The notes under the pieces: generated by a model | Databases searched by the model: none | What the model was told of the DNA's origin: nothing | Seen by the model: the letters and a program-made list of their open reading frames with translations, nothing else | Translations under genes and position numbers: made by a program | Source: an uncultured Aureispira sp. | Lineage (GTDB): Bacteria; Bacteroidota; Bacteroidia; Chitinophagales; Saprospiraceae | Reading direction: 5' to 3' | DNA: 37,615 nt | Assembly: GCA_937942475.1 (NCBI GenBank) | Contig: CALDEP010000427.1 | Coordinates: 1 to 37,615 of the forward strand | Shown here: positions 26,723 to 30,692 of the stretch, piece after piece | Position numbering within the stretch: the first letter of the stretch is position 1 | How the letters are laid out: each line of letters starts with the position of its first letter

Positions 26723-26766
26723 ACAAAAAAAAACCATCCTGAATAAATTCAAGATGGTTTTTTAAA
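26723..26766. terminator. Terminator after the PorP-OmpA-DUF1573 set
   Basis: AAACCATCCTGAAT (26731-26744) pairs with 26747-26760 (one mismatch) around a 2-nt loop. The minus strand continues with a run of T after the stem, and the plus strand with T6. It ends the DUF1573 transcript 13 bases after its stop codon. Confidence 0.75.
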
Positions 26767-26779
26767 CGTATGTTATAAG

Positions 26780-27091
26780 TTACTTTGTAACGTTTGCTTC
26801 GATATCATAAATAATCATATCCTCAGGAACATTTCCATAGATATTCAAACTTGATGAGTATGCAGGATCCACTTTAGCTTGAGCAGAATCGAATTTAAAT
26901 TTAATAAATCCTTTTTCTCCTGGCTTAACTGCTCCTCTCGACCAATCAGTAGGCTCTGTACAAATACATCCACCTTCCAAATGAAATATTTTAAAATCAT
27001 TTTTTCCAGTATTAGTAAATTCGATTGTGTATTCTTCTACATCACCAAATTTTACTGGTCCAATTTTCATCACTGGCTCATCAAAAGCCAA
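26780..27091 (-). CDS. DUF1573 domain reading frame without its own ATG
   Basis: The domain is a ~100-residue immunoglobulin-like (ASH/MSP-type) fold: 'AFDEPVMKIGPVKFGDVEEYTIEFTNTGKNDF', then 'GGCICTEPTDWSRGAVKPGEKGFIKFKFDS', as in DUF1573 envelope proteins. The only possible start near the domain edge is a TTG at 27091. The first in-frame ATG falls inside the first strand, and no signal peptide or lipobox is present, although relatives are exported. The frame is open upstream to 27163, where an in-frame TGA is formed with the first base of the A10 run at the end of the OmpA gene (27155-27164). A -1 slip on that run would join OmpA to this frame with a linker (KKKLTASNVVVTESENPGDK). It may therefore be made as an OmpA-DUF1573 fusion, be a start-less remnant, or reflect a sequence error in the run. 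Confidence 0.75.
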   Translation of the reverse strand: MAFDEPVMKIGPVKFGDVEEYTIEFTNTGKNDFKIFHLEGGCICTEPTDWSRGAVKPGEKGFIKFKFDSAQAKVDPAYSSSLNIYGNVPEDMIIYDIEANVTK

Positions 27092-27150
27092 AGTAGTTCT
27101 TGGTTTGTCACCAGGATTCTCAGACTCTGTTACAACGACATTGCTAGCCG

Positions 27151-29445
27151 TTAGTTTTTTTTTTCAGTAGTAGTTGGGCTTGCTCCCAAGCTACCATTAA
27201 CAATCTTGAATTCTACACGACGGTTAAGTGCACGTCCTTCAGGATTATCAGAACCATCTGTTTTTTCATTATCTGCTGCTGGCTCTCCTTCACCAAATGA
27301 TTTTGGTTGTAAGCGATTCTTAGCAATTCCTTTTTTAGTTAAGTAACTAATAGCAGCTTTAGAACGTTTGTCAGATAAGTTCATATTGTACTGATCACTA
27401 CCAATTGCATCCGTATGACCTCTTACTTCAACAACCATTTCAGGGTTTTCATTCAAAGTAGCCAATACCATTTCTAAAGTATCTGCTGCACCTTGACGAA
27501 TGTTTGATTTGTTGAAAGAGTAGTAGATGTTATAAAATACAGGAGGAGGCGTCAAATACATTTTTTGAACCATTCCTAAATCTTTTTTAGCGACAACTCT
27601 TGTATCTGCAATATAACCTTCACGGTTAGCAAAAACTTTGTAGTCTTTATCTCTTGGAAGAACAAAAGCAAATTCGTTACCAGTTCCTTTAGTCAATTGT
27701 TTCACTTCTTTGCCAGTAGCTGCATCATAAACGATTACAGTAACACCGTCCAAAGCAGCATTTGATTTTTTGTCAAATGCTTGAACAACTAAACCAAGTT
27801 CTTTGATTTTAACTTCTTTGTTAAATGTCATTGGTTTTGTCATATCCAAACCAGCAGCAGTTAGAGCTTCTTTTGTAGCATCAGCTGTTTCTTTTGTTCC
27901 TTCAGAACCATCTTTCTTAGCTACAACGTCATATTTCTTACCAACTTCAAGCAGGAATTGATAATCATTACCTTCTGTATTTGTTTGCTCATCAACCACT
28001 TCTCCTGTTGCTTGGTCAATTAATTGAACAGTAGCACCAATCATTGGATCACCAGTTCCTTCATCAACTACAGCAACATCTAGAATGATGTCACAACGCT
28101 CAGGCATGATAACAGAAAAGATATCATCACAACAAGTCTCACTTTTCAAAGACATTGTACCTGGACGGTTTGATAAGATGTAAGCATAACAATCATCGTT
28201 TCCTAGTTTATTAACTGTGAAACTAAAATCATCTACATAAGTATTAAAACCAGCACCCATGTTTTTGATCTCTCCCATAGAGCCATTTGAAGCACGCTCT
28301 GTACTGAAGATATCCCATCCACCATAACCAGGATGTCCATCTGAACTGAAGTATAAAGTGTTGTTTCTTTCATCAAAGAAAGGCGTCAAATCGTCTCCGA
28401 TTGTATTAATAGCTTCTAAGTTTAATGGTTCTTTAGTTGTTCCATCTTCATTGATTTCTGCATACCAAATATCCATATTACCTTTACCACCTTCCATATT
28501 AGAAGTAAATAACAAGTAATCTTTACCATCCCAAGTTGCAAATGCAGGATCTTGACAAGAGTAAGAACTAGAGTTGAAATCTAACAATTTAGGATTACTA
28601 ACAGTACCATCACTATAGTCTGCTACATAAATACGGCTATTTTCTAATTGATTTCCAATTAACTCTGCACGTACAAAGTAGAATTTAGTTTGATCGTCGT
28701 TAAAAGTAGGTTCAACAACGTGCATGCCTTCTTTTTGAAGAATATCAGCGTTAAACTCTTTTGCTTCACCAAATTTACCATCCTCATCTGATTGAGCGAT
28801 GTAAATTTTTGCGTGCTCATAGTCTTCACCTTCTTCTTTTACAATAATAGTATCTGCACGTAAAGAAGCATAGATAATCTCATCACGTCCCATTGGGAAC
28901 GCCCCACCTTCTGTAGAAAGAGAGTTTACATTAGGACCAGCATTTTCAATGATTAATTCCTCTGTTGGCTCCATATTATCTTTAGCCCATTTTGCTCCAT
29001 CAATGTGGATTTGAGCCATTTTTTTATAATAATCAGCTTTTGGTGCATCAGCAGGATATTCCTTGATGAATGCCTCAAAAATAGGAATAGATTTATCATA
29101 ATCTCCAGTCATTTTTGTAACTAAAGCATGTTGATAACGGCTCAATGGATAGTCCTCTTTTTGATCTAAGTCAACCAATTTTTGGTACCATTCAGCAGCA
29201 CTTTTATAATCTCTTAACATTTCATGCGTAGAAGCTATTTTATAAATAGCTGCACCGTCTTTCTCGTTAGCTTCATAAGCACGTTCGTACCATTCCAAAG
29301 CTGTGTATGTATTTTTTTTATTGCGTTCCTCGTCTCCGATTTGTTCCTTCATCTCAGAAGTCAGGTTGTTAGTTGTTGGTTGAGCATAAGCCAACTGACC
29401 AACTAGTAAACAAGCAATAATTAGTAATATATTATTTAGTTTCAT
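27151..29445 (-). CDS. PorE-like TPR/PD40/OmpA envelope protein
   Basis: This 764-residue exported protein has the layout of PorE-type T9SS components. There is a signal peptide (1-22, ending AYAQ), TPR repeats (~30-135, 'TALEWYERAYEANEKDGAAIYKIA'), a PD40/WD40-like propeller (~165-415, 'TPFFDERNNTLYFSSDGHPGYGGWDIF'), two carboxypeptidase-regulatory-like repeats (~440-620) and an OmpA C-terminal domain (~640-750). The OmpA domain has 'RGHTDAIGSDQYNMNLSDKRSKA', including the Asp and Arg that bind diaminopimelate in peptidoglycan. It should link the outer membrane to the cell wall. The PorP/SprF gene lies upstream with 104 bases between, which holds a hairpin but no promoter-like sequence. The gene ends GAA AAA AAA AAC TAA, an A10 run (27155-27164) that could cause slippage into the DUF1573 frame. 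Confidence 0.9.
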   Translation of the reverse strand: MKLNNILLIIACLLVGQLAYAQPTTNNLTSEMKEQIGDEERNKKNTYTALEWYERAYEANEKDGAAIYKIASTHEMLRDYKSAAEWYQKLVDLDQKEDYPLSRYQHALVTKMTGDYDKSIPIFEAFIKEYPADAPKADYYKKMAQIHIDGAKWAKDNMEPTEELIIENAGPNVNSLSTEGGAFPMGRDEIIYASLRADTIIVKEEGEDYEHAKIYIAQSDEDGKFGEAKEFNADILQKEGMHVVEPTFNDDQTKFYFVRAELIGNQLENSRIYVADYSDGTVSNPKLLDFNSSSYSCQDPAFATWDGKDYLLFTSNMEGGKGNMDIWYAEINEDGTTKEPLNLEAINTIGDDLTPFFDERNNTLYFSSDGHPGYGGWDIFSTERASNGSMGEIKNMGAGFNTYVDDFSFTVNKLGNDDCYAYILSNRPGTMSLKSETCCDDIFSVIMPERCDIILDVAVVDEGTGDPMIGATVQLIDQATGEVVDEQTNTEGNDYQFLLEVGKKYDVVAKKDGSEGTKETADATKEALTAAGLDMTKPMTFNKEVKIKELGLVVQAFDKKSNAALDGVTVIVYDAATGKEVKQLTKGTGNEFAFVLPRDKDYKVFANREGYIADTRVVAKKDLGMVQKMYLTPPPVFYNIYYSFNKSNIRQGAADTLEMVLATLNENPEMVVEVRGHTDAIGSDQYNMNLSDKRSKAAISYLTKKGIAKNRLQPKSFGEGEPAADNEKTDGSDNPEGRALNRRVEFKIVNGSLGASPTTTEKKN
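27155..27164 (-). other. A10 slippery run at the OmpA/DUF1573 junction
   Basis: Ten consecutive A (minus strand) precede the OmpA stop by two bases. In the OmpA frame the codons read GAA AAA AAA AAC TAA. With one more A (or two fewer, or a -1 ribosomal slip) the frame continues as AAA CTA ACG GCT through 127 codons of DUF1573. Runs of nine or more A are known to promote transcriptional slippage and can serve for -1 ribosomal frameshifting. Confidence 0.5.
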
Positions 29446-29500: not shown

Positions 29501-29534
29501 GGGATTAGAAATCTACAAATAGATTTCTAATCCC
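29501..29534 (-). terminator. Hairpin between PorP/SprF and OmpA genes
   Basis: GGGATTAGAAATCTA (29501-29515) pairs perfectly with 29520-29534 around CAAA. On the minus strand it is followed by GTTTTATTAT, so the T run is imperfect. It starts 15 bases after the PorP/SprF stop and may be a partial terminator or an mRNA stability element that sets the ratio of the two proteins. Confidence 0.6.
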
Positions 29535-29549
29535 TTATTGGAGTTATTA

Positions 29550-30692
29550 TTAAAAACGAGGGCAGAATAAAACATCATCAACAACAGGTACCTTGTAGAT
29601 TTTAGCTACATAAGATAGTGCAACTTCGAAAGCCATTGCTCTATTTCTGTTATTAAATATTTGATTATTCAAACCTTGTGTTCCTGTATTGATGTCATAA
29701 GCGAAACCAAATTTAAGTCCCTTAACATCTAAGCCTATACGAGCAATAGCATCACCACTTGCACGGTAACCACCACCTAAGTATAAGGTAATATCTTGCA
29801 TATCGTTAAAGTGAATTCCCAACAATAACTGTCCGTTAAAGTCAAAAGCACTCAAACCTTCTCCTTGACCAGTAGTATTAATGGTATTTTGGAAGAAGAA
29901 CAATGGCTTCAAGAATAAATTTCCTTTTTTAGTCAATGCAATTCTAAGGATTAAGTTAGAAATTGTTGTCATTGGCAATCTTGCTTCGTCATCCTCATTT
30001 TCATTAGGAGTCATAAAGCTGTAGTTAGGATTGGTAAAGTGATTCAAAGAAACACCTGCTTCCAAACCAAAACGTCTTCCTCTGTGGCTCAACATTAAAC
30101 CACCAGAAAAGTCAGGCAAGTTCTTTGTTGCATTACCTAATGACATACCAAGAGGGTCTGTAGTAGCATTACCACCACCAGAAATCAATTGATCTTCAAA
30201 TGTAAAATCTCCAGAGATTCTACGTTGCATAATACCGCCTTTTGCAGCAAAAGACAAGATAGTATTTCCTTTTGCTCCTAAACCTAAGTGGTAAGCCAAA
30301 GATAAACTAGCTCTCAAGTTAGAAAGAGTTGCCCCATTTTCACTACCAACAGCATCATAATAAAATGAGATACCAACACCTGCCCAATTTCTAATTGGCT
30401 TTCCTTTTCTAGGAATAGCAAAAGGCACATCAATATAAGCAGATGGCGTTTGATAACCATCGAAGCTACTAGAAGCATTACTAGTAGATGGAGCAGCAGA
30501 AATAGACATCCCAGCCCATTGTGTTCTGTATAGTCCACCGATTCTAAAAGTACCTGCGTAATATCCTGTATGAGCAGGATTTAGCTCTAGTGGAGCCATG
30601 TCAAACATCGAATAATGGATGTCTTGAGCTTGGCTACTGGATGTACAAAAACCTACTATAAAAAGTAGGCATACACTCGTTAAAATTTTCAT
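29550..30692 (-). CDS. PorP/SprF family outer membrane protein
   Basis: This is a 380-residue outer-membrane barrel of the type IX secretion/gliding family (TIGR03519). It has a signal peptide of 23 residues (ending SSSQAQ). Then 'DIHYSMFDMAPLELNPAHTGYY', the family's opening signature, is followed by 'GGLYRTQWAGMS' and 'PSAYIDVPF'. Further blocks 'LSLAYHLGL', 'DFSGGLMLSHRG' and 'FGFAYDINT' are barrel strands typical of the family. PorP-like proteins bind PorE or anchor specific T9SS cargo such as SprB; paralogues paired with large type B-CTD adhesins are common. No adhesin gene is next to it here, so I infer a general or orphan PorP/SprF-OmpA pair. It is probably transcribed with the OmpA gene that follows. 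Confidence 0.93.
   Translation of the reverse strand: MKILTSVCLLFIVGFCTSSSQAQDIHYSMFDMAPLELNPAHTGYYAGTFRIGGLYRTQWAGMSISAAPSTSNASSSFDGYQTPSAYIDVPFAIPRKGKPIRNWAGVGISFYYDAVGSENGATLSNLRASLSLAYHLGLGAKGNTILSFAAKGGIMQRRISGDFTFEDQLISGGGNATTDPLGMSLGNATKNLPDFSGGLMLSHRGRRFGLEAGVSLNHFTNPNYSFMTPNENEDDEARLPMTTISNLILRIALTKKGNLFLKPLFFFQNTINTTGQGEGLSAFDFNGQLLLGIHFNDMQDITLYLGGGYRASGDAIARIGLDVKGLKFGFAYDINTGTQGLNNQIFNNRNRAMAFEVALSYVAKIYKVPVVDDVLFCPRF

Follow-up and report, generated by a model that had tools for sequence, protein, structure and literature searches.

In the Citrobacter rodentium gene tssM1, an A11 run precedes the stop codon, and transcriptional slippage on this run, at a level of 20-25%, has been proven in both RNA and protein (PMC4256274). 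Insertions, mostly of single bases, outnumber deletions in the A/T runs of E. coli and Buchnera transcripts (PMC5574713), and in a large proportion of genomes, selection against slippage becomes apparent once runs reach nine (Baranov et al., PMC1088944). For Thermus dnaX, nearby stops in both non-zero frames have been described in the Atkins review (PMC5009743). Among OmpA proteins, PorE of Porphyromonas gingivalis has been crystallised with a peptidoglycan fragment (PMC7192894); PorE is not known to carry a DUF1573 domain. Here, we analysed an OmpA-family gene of an uncultured Aureispira sp. that ends in an A10 run and is followed by a DUF1573 frame. The features of the locus are given below in the direction of transcription; positions refer to the window, i.e. 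the whole stretch of 37,615 nt of DNA that was analysed.

29550..30692, minus strand: PorP/SprF-family type IX secretion membrane protein gene, upstream of OmpA (TIGR03519, 133 bits; cut-off 90.55)
29501..29534, minus strand: terminator-like hairpin between the PorP/SprF gene and OmpA
27151..29445, minus strand: OmpA-family gene, an ORF of 764 aa with TPR, PD40, CarboxypepD_reg and OmpA (peptidoglycan-binding type) matches
27155..27164, minus strand: A10 slippery run, flanked by G and C, kept in 8/8 Aureispira orthologues
27151..27153, minus strand: TAA stop of the 0 frame, one base past the A10 run, terminating the short form
26780..27154, minus strand: -1 frame past the run (linker and DUF1573), open for 124 aa plus stop, without signal peptide
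26789..27088, minus strand: DUF1573 domain (PF07610), ASH/PapD-like Ig fold (Pfam, 58.4 bits; gathering cut-off 26.1)
26728..26763, minus strand: terminator-like hairpin 3' of DUF1573

The OmpA domain of the 764-aa protein is matched with 64.1 bits (Pfam), while its TPR and PD40 matches fall under their Pfam cut-offs, and the N-terminus resembles a signal peptide as judged by eye from the translation. The sequence-only reading of this locus had claimed that the run closes the OmpA gene, that the DUF1573 frame is open back to the run with neither an ATG before the domain nor a signal peptide, and that a -1 slip, or one extra A, would fuse the two frames. All three claims held. That is, the 3' end of the gene reads ACT GAA AAA AAA AAC TAA and the protein ends in EKKN; DUF1573 lies in the -1 frame relative to OmpA, which is equivalent to one extra A; and the first in-frame ATG of the DUF1573 frame (27070) is within the domain, in its second predicted strand. 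An in-frame TTG at 27091 falls exactly where the first predicted strand of the fold begins. The marks of a separate DUF1573 (lipo)protein gene, namely its own start and signal peptide, are absent, and the third frame closes after EKKTNG. The run also contains A_AAA_AAC, a ribosomal heptamer of the X_XXY_YYZ type. The scan for terminator-like hairpins, which found two where 1.7 were expected in shuffles, reported none between OmpA and DUF1573.

The test of slippage set beforehand was whether related genomes conserve the A run at an identical frame offset, and all eight Aureispira orthologues, including that of the window, passed it. A full-length OmpA orthologue (62-90% identity) was found in seven of the eight other Aureispira genomes searched; the sole congener without one is G007, a genome listed as 96% complete. 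The run is A10 in seven of the eight loci and A9 in the remaining one, which still has the -1 offset. In every locus the OmpA stop follows 1-2 nt past the run and the DUF1573 sequence in the -1 frame starts with KKKL. The linkers just past the run diverge strongly among these loci, and therefore the run has been retained while its surroundings drifted. L003 and L004, two of these loci, hardly differ at the junction and are worth little more than one observation. For seven Aureispira pairs, picked beforehand out of 21 possible ones, dN/dS was 0.013-0.14 for the DUF1573 domain part and 0.09-0.21 for OmpA, several dS values being saturated. The DUF1573 domain in the -1 frame is under purifying selection.

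A profile built from 20 related OmpA cores matched 260 of 298 genomes of the family, with one match per genome in nearly all of those inspected. Only four candidates per genome were scored. Altogether, 177 loci were classified; their 177 genomes represent 90 genera. Short-frame rows were taken by preference and long-frame rows only in part, so that the counts of the different states are not prevalences. DUF1573 is fused to OmpA in frame in 73 loci (51 genera), on the strength of which the long OmpA-DUF1573 product is an established protein. In one such fusion (L058), two DUF1573 domains stand behind OmpA. In 62 loci DUF1573 is in a separate ORF, and in the other 42 it was not detected within 1.3 kb of OmpA; in five of these, the sequence past the stop is shorter than 700 bases. 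Among the 42, a different long frame (≥80 codons) follows OmpA in five, lacking both a DUF1573 match and a run of A7 or longer, and in three an A7 or A8 stands close to the OmpA stop but no long shifted frame goes with it. An order-level search at E 1e-170 found the OmpA group in 35 of 198 genomes, all from the same family and none outside it; the Aureispira protein itself falls under this threshold, and therefore distant members may be missed.

The separate DUF1573 ORFs fall into two classes. A signal peptide was called when a start codon was followed within 35 residues by 10 residues with a mean hydrophobicity of at least 1.6, a rule of our own making and not a trained predictor. The classes are well separated by it, as the best leader hydrophobicity is at most 0.89 in ORFs without a signal peptide and at least 2.08 in those with one. 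Of the 62 loci, 34 have no signal peptide (hereafter slip-type loci), and an A9-A11 or T9 run is found before the OmpA stop in all 34. They come from 15 of the 90 genera, i.e. Aureispira and 14 further ones. By contrast, none of the 28 loci with a signal peptide (13 genera) has a run before the OmpA stop (Fisher p 3e-18 across the 62 loci, relatedness uncorrected); 24 of these 28 have a lipobox-like motif. One of them (L083) has an A9 run 158 nt after the OmpA stop and ahead of the DUF1573 gene, which may be a relic or chance. In-frame fusion, or a separate gene with a signal peptide, had been named in advance as findings that would refute slippage, and both do exist in relatives. They do not overturn it, because the run is present at every signal-less split and before the OmpA stop of none with a signal peptide. 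The offset of DUF1573 is -1 in 33 of the 34 slip-type loci and +1 in one (L147, A11, from a single draft genome), whereas the offsets of the 28 signal-peptide loci are spread evenly (11 in frame, 8 at +1 and 9 at -1). In four fused genes (L019, L125, L141 and L207), an A9 or A10 run is present without breaking the frame. Inferred from sequence alone, this is the converse arrangement, where a slip would truncate the product. The 38 run-bearing junctions thus comprise 33 at -1, four in frame and one at +1.

The runs at the slip-type loci are A10 in 25 cases, A9 in six, A11 in two and T9 in one; none is shorter. The OmpA stop lies 0-1 nt past the run in 25 of the 34, and the third frame is closed within two codons in 29 of the 34, as against 14-26% at control positions. 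These controls do not reproduce the A-rich context, and relatives among the loci are not independent observations. No A/T run of nine or more was present in the OmpA bodies of the 177 loci (358,089 bases), whereas the 34 slip-type junctions, 3,108 bases in all, have at least one apiece. From the two-contig relative G004, 400 kb were sampled as 20 stretches, one of them picked for holding this locus, with 330 kb in ORFs of at least 100 aa; eight such runs lie inside ORFs, and the OmpA junction is the sole A10. The junction run opens 128 codons in the -1 frame, and the next longest shifted frame is 34. The window itself holds seven A/T runs of nine or more, the junction run being the only one of ten. 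A pattern search for genes of like design in five Aureispira genomes gave eight matches in four of the five, three of which are this junction; in none of the other five does a long upstream frame lead on into a shifted frame that is also long. One of those five runs lies close to the beginning of a 505-codon frame.

The arrangement can be read as a single gene with two readings. Slippage at A10, by either the RNA polymerase or the ribosome, very probably yields the long form. This rests on comparative genomics, and there is no RNA or protein evidence; the earlier inference that slippage occurs in the cell is supported, with its level inferred. Transcripts without a slip would give the 764-aa OmpA protein ending in EKKN. 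In a share of the transcripts, one A would be inserted in the run by RNA polymerase, and the ribosome would then enter the -1 frame and make a protein of ~888 aa with the junction EKKKLTASNVV and DUF1573 behind the OmpA domain. This fused form would contain the peptide LTASNVVVTESENPGDKPR, preceded by K. DUF1573 would reach the periplasm only via the OmpA signal peptide. The slip fraction is likewise inferred, and the 20-25% at A11 of C. rodentium tssM1 may serve, by analogy, as the sole guide.

We consider transcription the likely level of slippage (probability ~0.65), an inference made without RNA or protein data. An A/T run of at least nine is present at the junction, both here and in all slip-type loci, and the alternative frame is conserved and under selection. 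The bias toward -1 is predicted by this mechanism because insertions prevail in A/T-run slippage (PMC5574713). Taken together, the absence of runs shorter than nine, the lack of a general stimulator (see below), the single +1 case and the tssM1 precedent favour the transcriptional level. Against it, one direction dominates, and a constant direction was taken as a sign of ribosomal frameshifting by Antonov et al. (PMC3711429). Their criterion for transcriptional slippage, shifts in both directions among orthologues, compares with 33 loci at -1 and one at +1 in this family, an imbalance for which the insertion bias would account. Moreover, strong downstream hairpins, which a transcriptional mechanism does not need, occur in three of the 15 genera (g103, g62 and g25), and the +1 case rests on one draft genome.

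The main rival is programmed -1 ribosomal frameshifting on A_AAA_AAC (or A_AAA_AAA), which would make the same long protein from an unaltered mRNA and remains possible. The heptamer is present, and the offset is constant in 33 of the 34 loci. Furthermore, the windows downstream of slip-type runs fold better than fused-gene linkers (genus means -1.68 vs -0.42, p 0.013) and better than the upstream side (p 0.016). However, runs of 7-8 would suffice for the heptamer and are not seen at slip-type loci, an SD-like motif lies upstream in only eight of the 34, and one genus has -1 with A9 (L016) and +1 with A11 (L147). Hairpins with z < -3 occur in only five of the 34 slip-type loci and in none of Aureispira. 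Such hairpins are also found in 3 of 73 fused linkers and after the OmpA stop in 6 of 28 separate-gene loci, and therefore structure at this place is not specific to the slip. No general RNA stimulator emerged, the mean downstream z being -1.47 for slip-type loci, -0.48 for fused linkers and -1.96 after the OmpA stop of separate-gene loci. The Fisher and binomial values ignore relatedness. Individual hairpins are predicted ~10-33 nt past the run in L070, L071 and L074 (g103), L122 (g62), and L166 and L168 (g25), with stems of up to 14-17 pairs and z of -3.0 to -6.8, except for L071 at -2.6. Very strong hairpins just after the OmpA stop were also seen in L113 and L118 of g10 (z -9.1 and -11.4), where DUF1573 is a separate gene; these are possibly terminators. 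While we favour transcriptional slippage, both levels may act.

The remaining explanations are all very unlikely. The run could be a DNA-level contingency tract that switches DUF1573 on and off by phase variation, as it is a long homopolymer in an envelope gene and poly-A/T tracts have been flagged as possibly giving rise to such variation (PMC3711429). However, the frames at the 38 run-bearing junctions are far from random, and Aureispira is at -1 throughout, including the A9 member. Alternatively, DUF1573 could be translated separately from its own start, at TTG 27091, in frame at the beginning of the fold, or at ATG 27070. Yet TTG is found at the former position in only four of the eight Aureispira loci, the latter falls in the second predicted strand, and 22 of the 34 slip-type loci have no ATG, GTG or TTG ahead of the domain and none has a hydrophobic leader. 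The product would moreover be cytoplasmic, whereas 28 of the 62 separate DUF1573 ORFs have a signal peptide. Finally, a sequencing or assembly error hiding a true A11 run and a plain fusion, which error-prone homopolymers and the many draft genomes might suggest, is countered by 34 loci, from 15 genera, that all change frame at a run of this kind, by two Aureispira genomes assembled in 2-3 contigs, and by the out-of-frame stop placed 0-1 nt past the run in 25 of the 34, which error would not produce.

From residue 22 of the -1 frame onward, AlphaFold gives a confident beta fold (mean pLDDT 88.9), and the nearest solved folds to the DUF1573 model include the ASH/PapD-like domains of HYDIN and CEP192. 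A PDB sequence search with the DUF1573 part gave no convincing match. The best PDB sequence match of the OmpA domain was 7f4v_aB, residues 754-864, labelled Photosystem I apoprotein, perhaps an unusual fusion or a slip of labelling. The genes directly upstream of OmpA match PorP/SprF TIGR03519 in all four cases tested (this locus and three slip-type relatives). We infer that the long form likely serves as a minority of peptidoglycan anchors carrying an extra periplasmic binding domain in a PorP/SprF-linked module, binding itself being part of the inference. The protein is not assigned to PorE or to the CHU_0125 OmpA family: it scores 225 bits with the PorE model NF052230 (cut-off 600) and 279.9 with the CHU_0125 model NF053607 (cut-off 620), and the five relatives tested also fall under the cut-offs.

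In a FastTree phylogeny built from 181 OmpA cores, 15 changes of the slip label are required, and well-supported branches force at least 13 of them. The tree has long branches, and gains cannot be distinguished from losses. Aureispira branches near the base, and at several places slip-type loci neighbour fused or signal-peptide-bearing ones. Mixed states also occur within genera: g107 has slip, fused, and fused-with-run loci, g119 has slip loci and separate genes, and g6 has A9 (-1), A11 (+1) and fused loci. A bolder reading, which in our judgement could as readily prove wrong as right, is that slippage represents a third, stable condition that recurs between fused and separate genes, the junction alternating between in-frame fusion, a separate lipoprotein gene and A9-A11 slippage, and that its long retention reflects selection, in an envelope module linked to type IX secretion, for a fixed proportion of OmpA carrying tethered DUF1573 to OmpA lacking it.

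The mechanism class is already known; the novelty lies in the gene family and in how it has evolved back and forth. No report of this gene was recognised in the open-access PMC literature that was searched, subscription journals and the GeneTack database lying outside the search. The loci look like a large natural recoding family in an ordinary chromosomal gene. Fused, separate and slipped solutions on one tree allow a direct test of why a cell keeps a two-form mixture, and annotating an OmpA gene next to an orphan DUF1573 can miss a real protein.

Among known systems, C. rodentium tssM1 is similar in having its A11 just before the stop of an envelope-machine gene, where added A's fuse a periplasmic C-terminal domain, and Yersinia pseudotuberculosis tssM3 has the reverse layout, as in the four fused genes with an in-frame run (PMC4256274). 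Slippery sites are, however, uncommon in tssM according to the authors (PMC4256274), as against 15 genera for OmpA-DUF1573, and the extra part of OmpA is a domain encoded elsewhere by a gene of its own. PorE, a relative, shares with our protein the character of a periplasmic multi-domain OmpA protein of a type IX system (PMC7192894). Thermus thermophilus dnaX likewise has an A9 run, two C-terminal forms and nearby stops in both non-zero frames (PMC5009743, PMC1088944), but there the full-length form is in frame, whereas at most run-bearing OmpA loci it is the short form. In the dnaX genes with ~10 A's that make the long form via a frameshift (PMC3711429, PMC5009743), a shift is needed and the 0-frame stop directly follows the site, as at OmpA, albeit in another gene.
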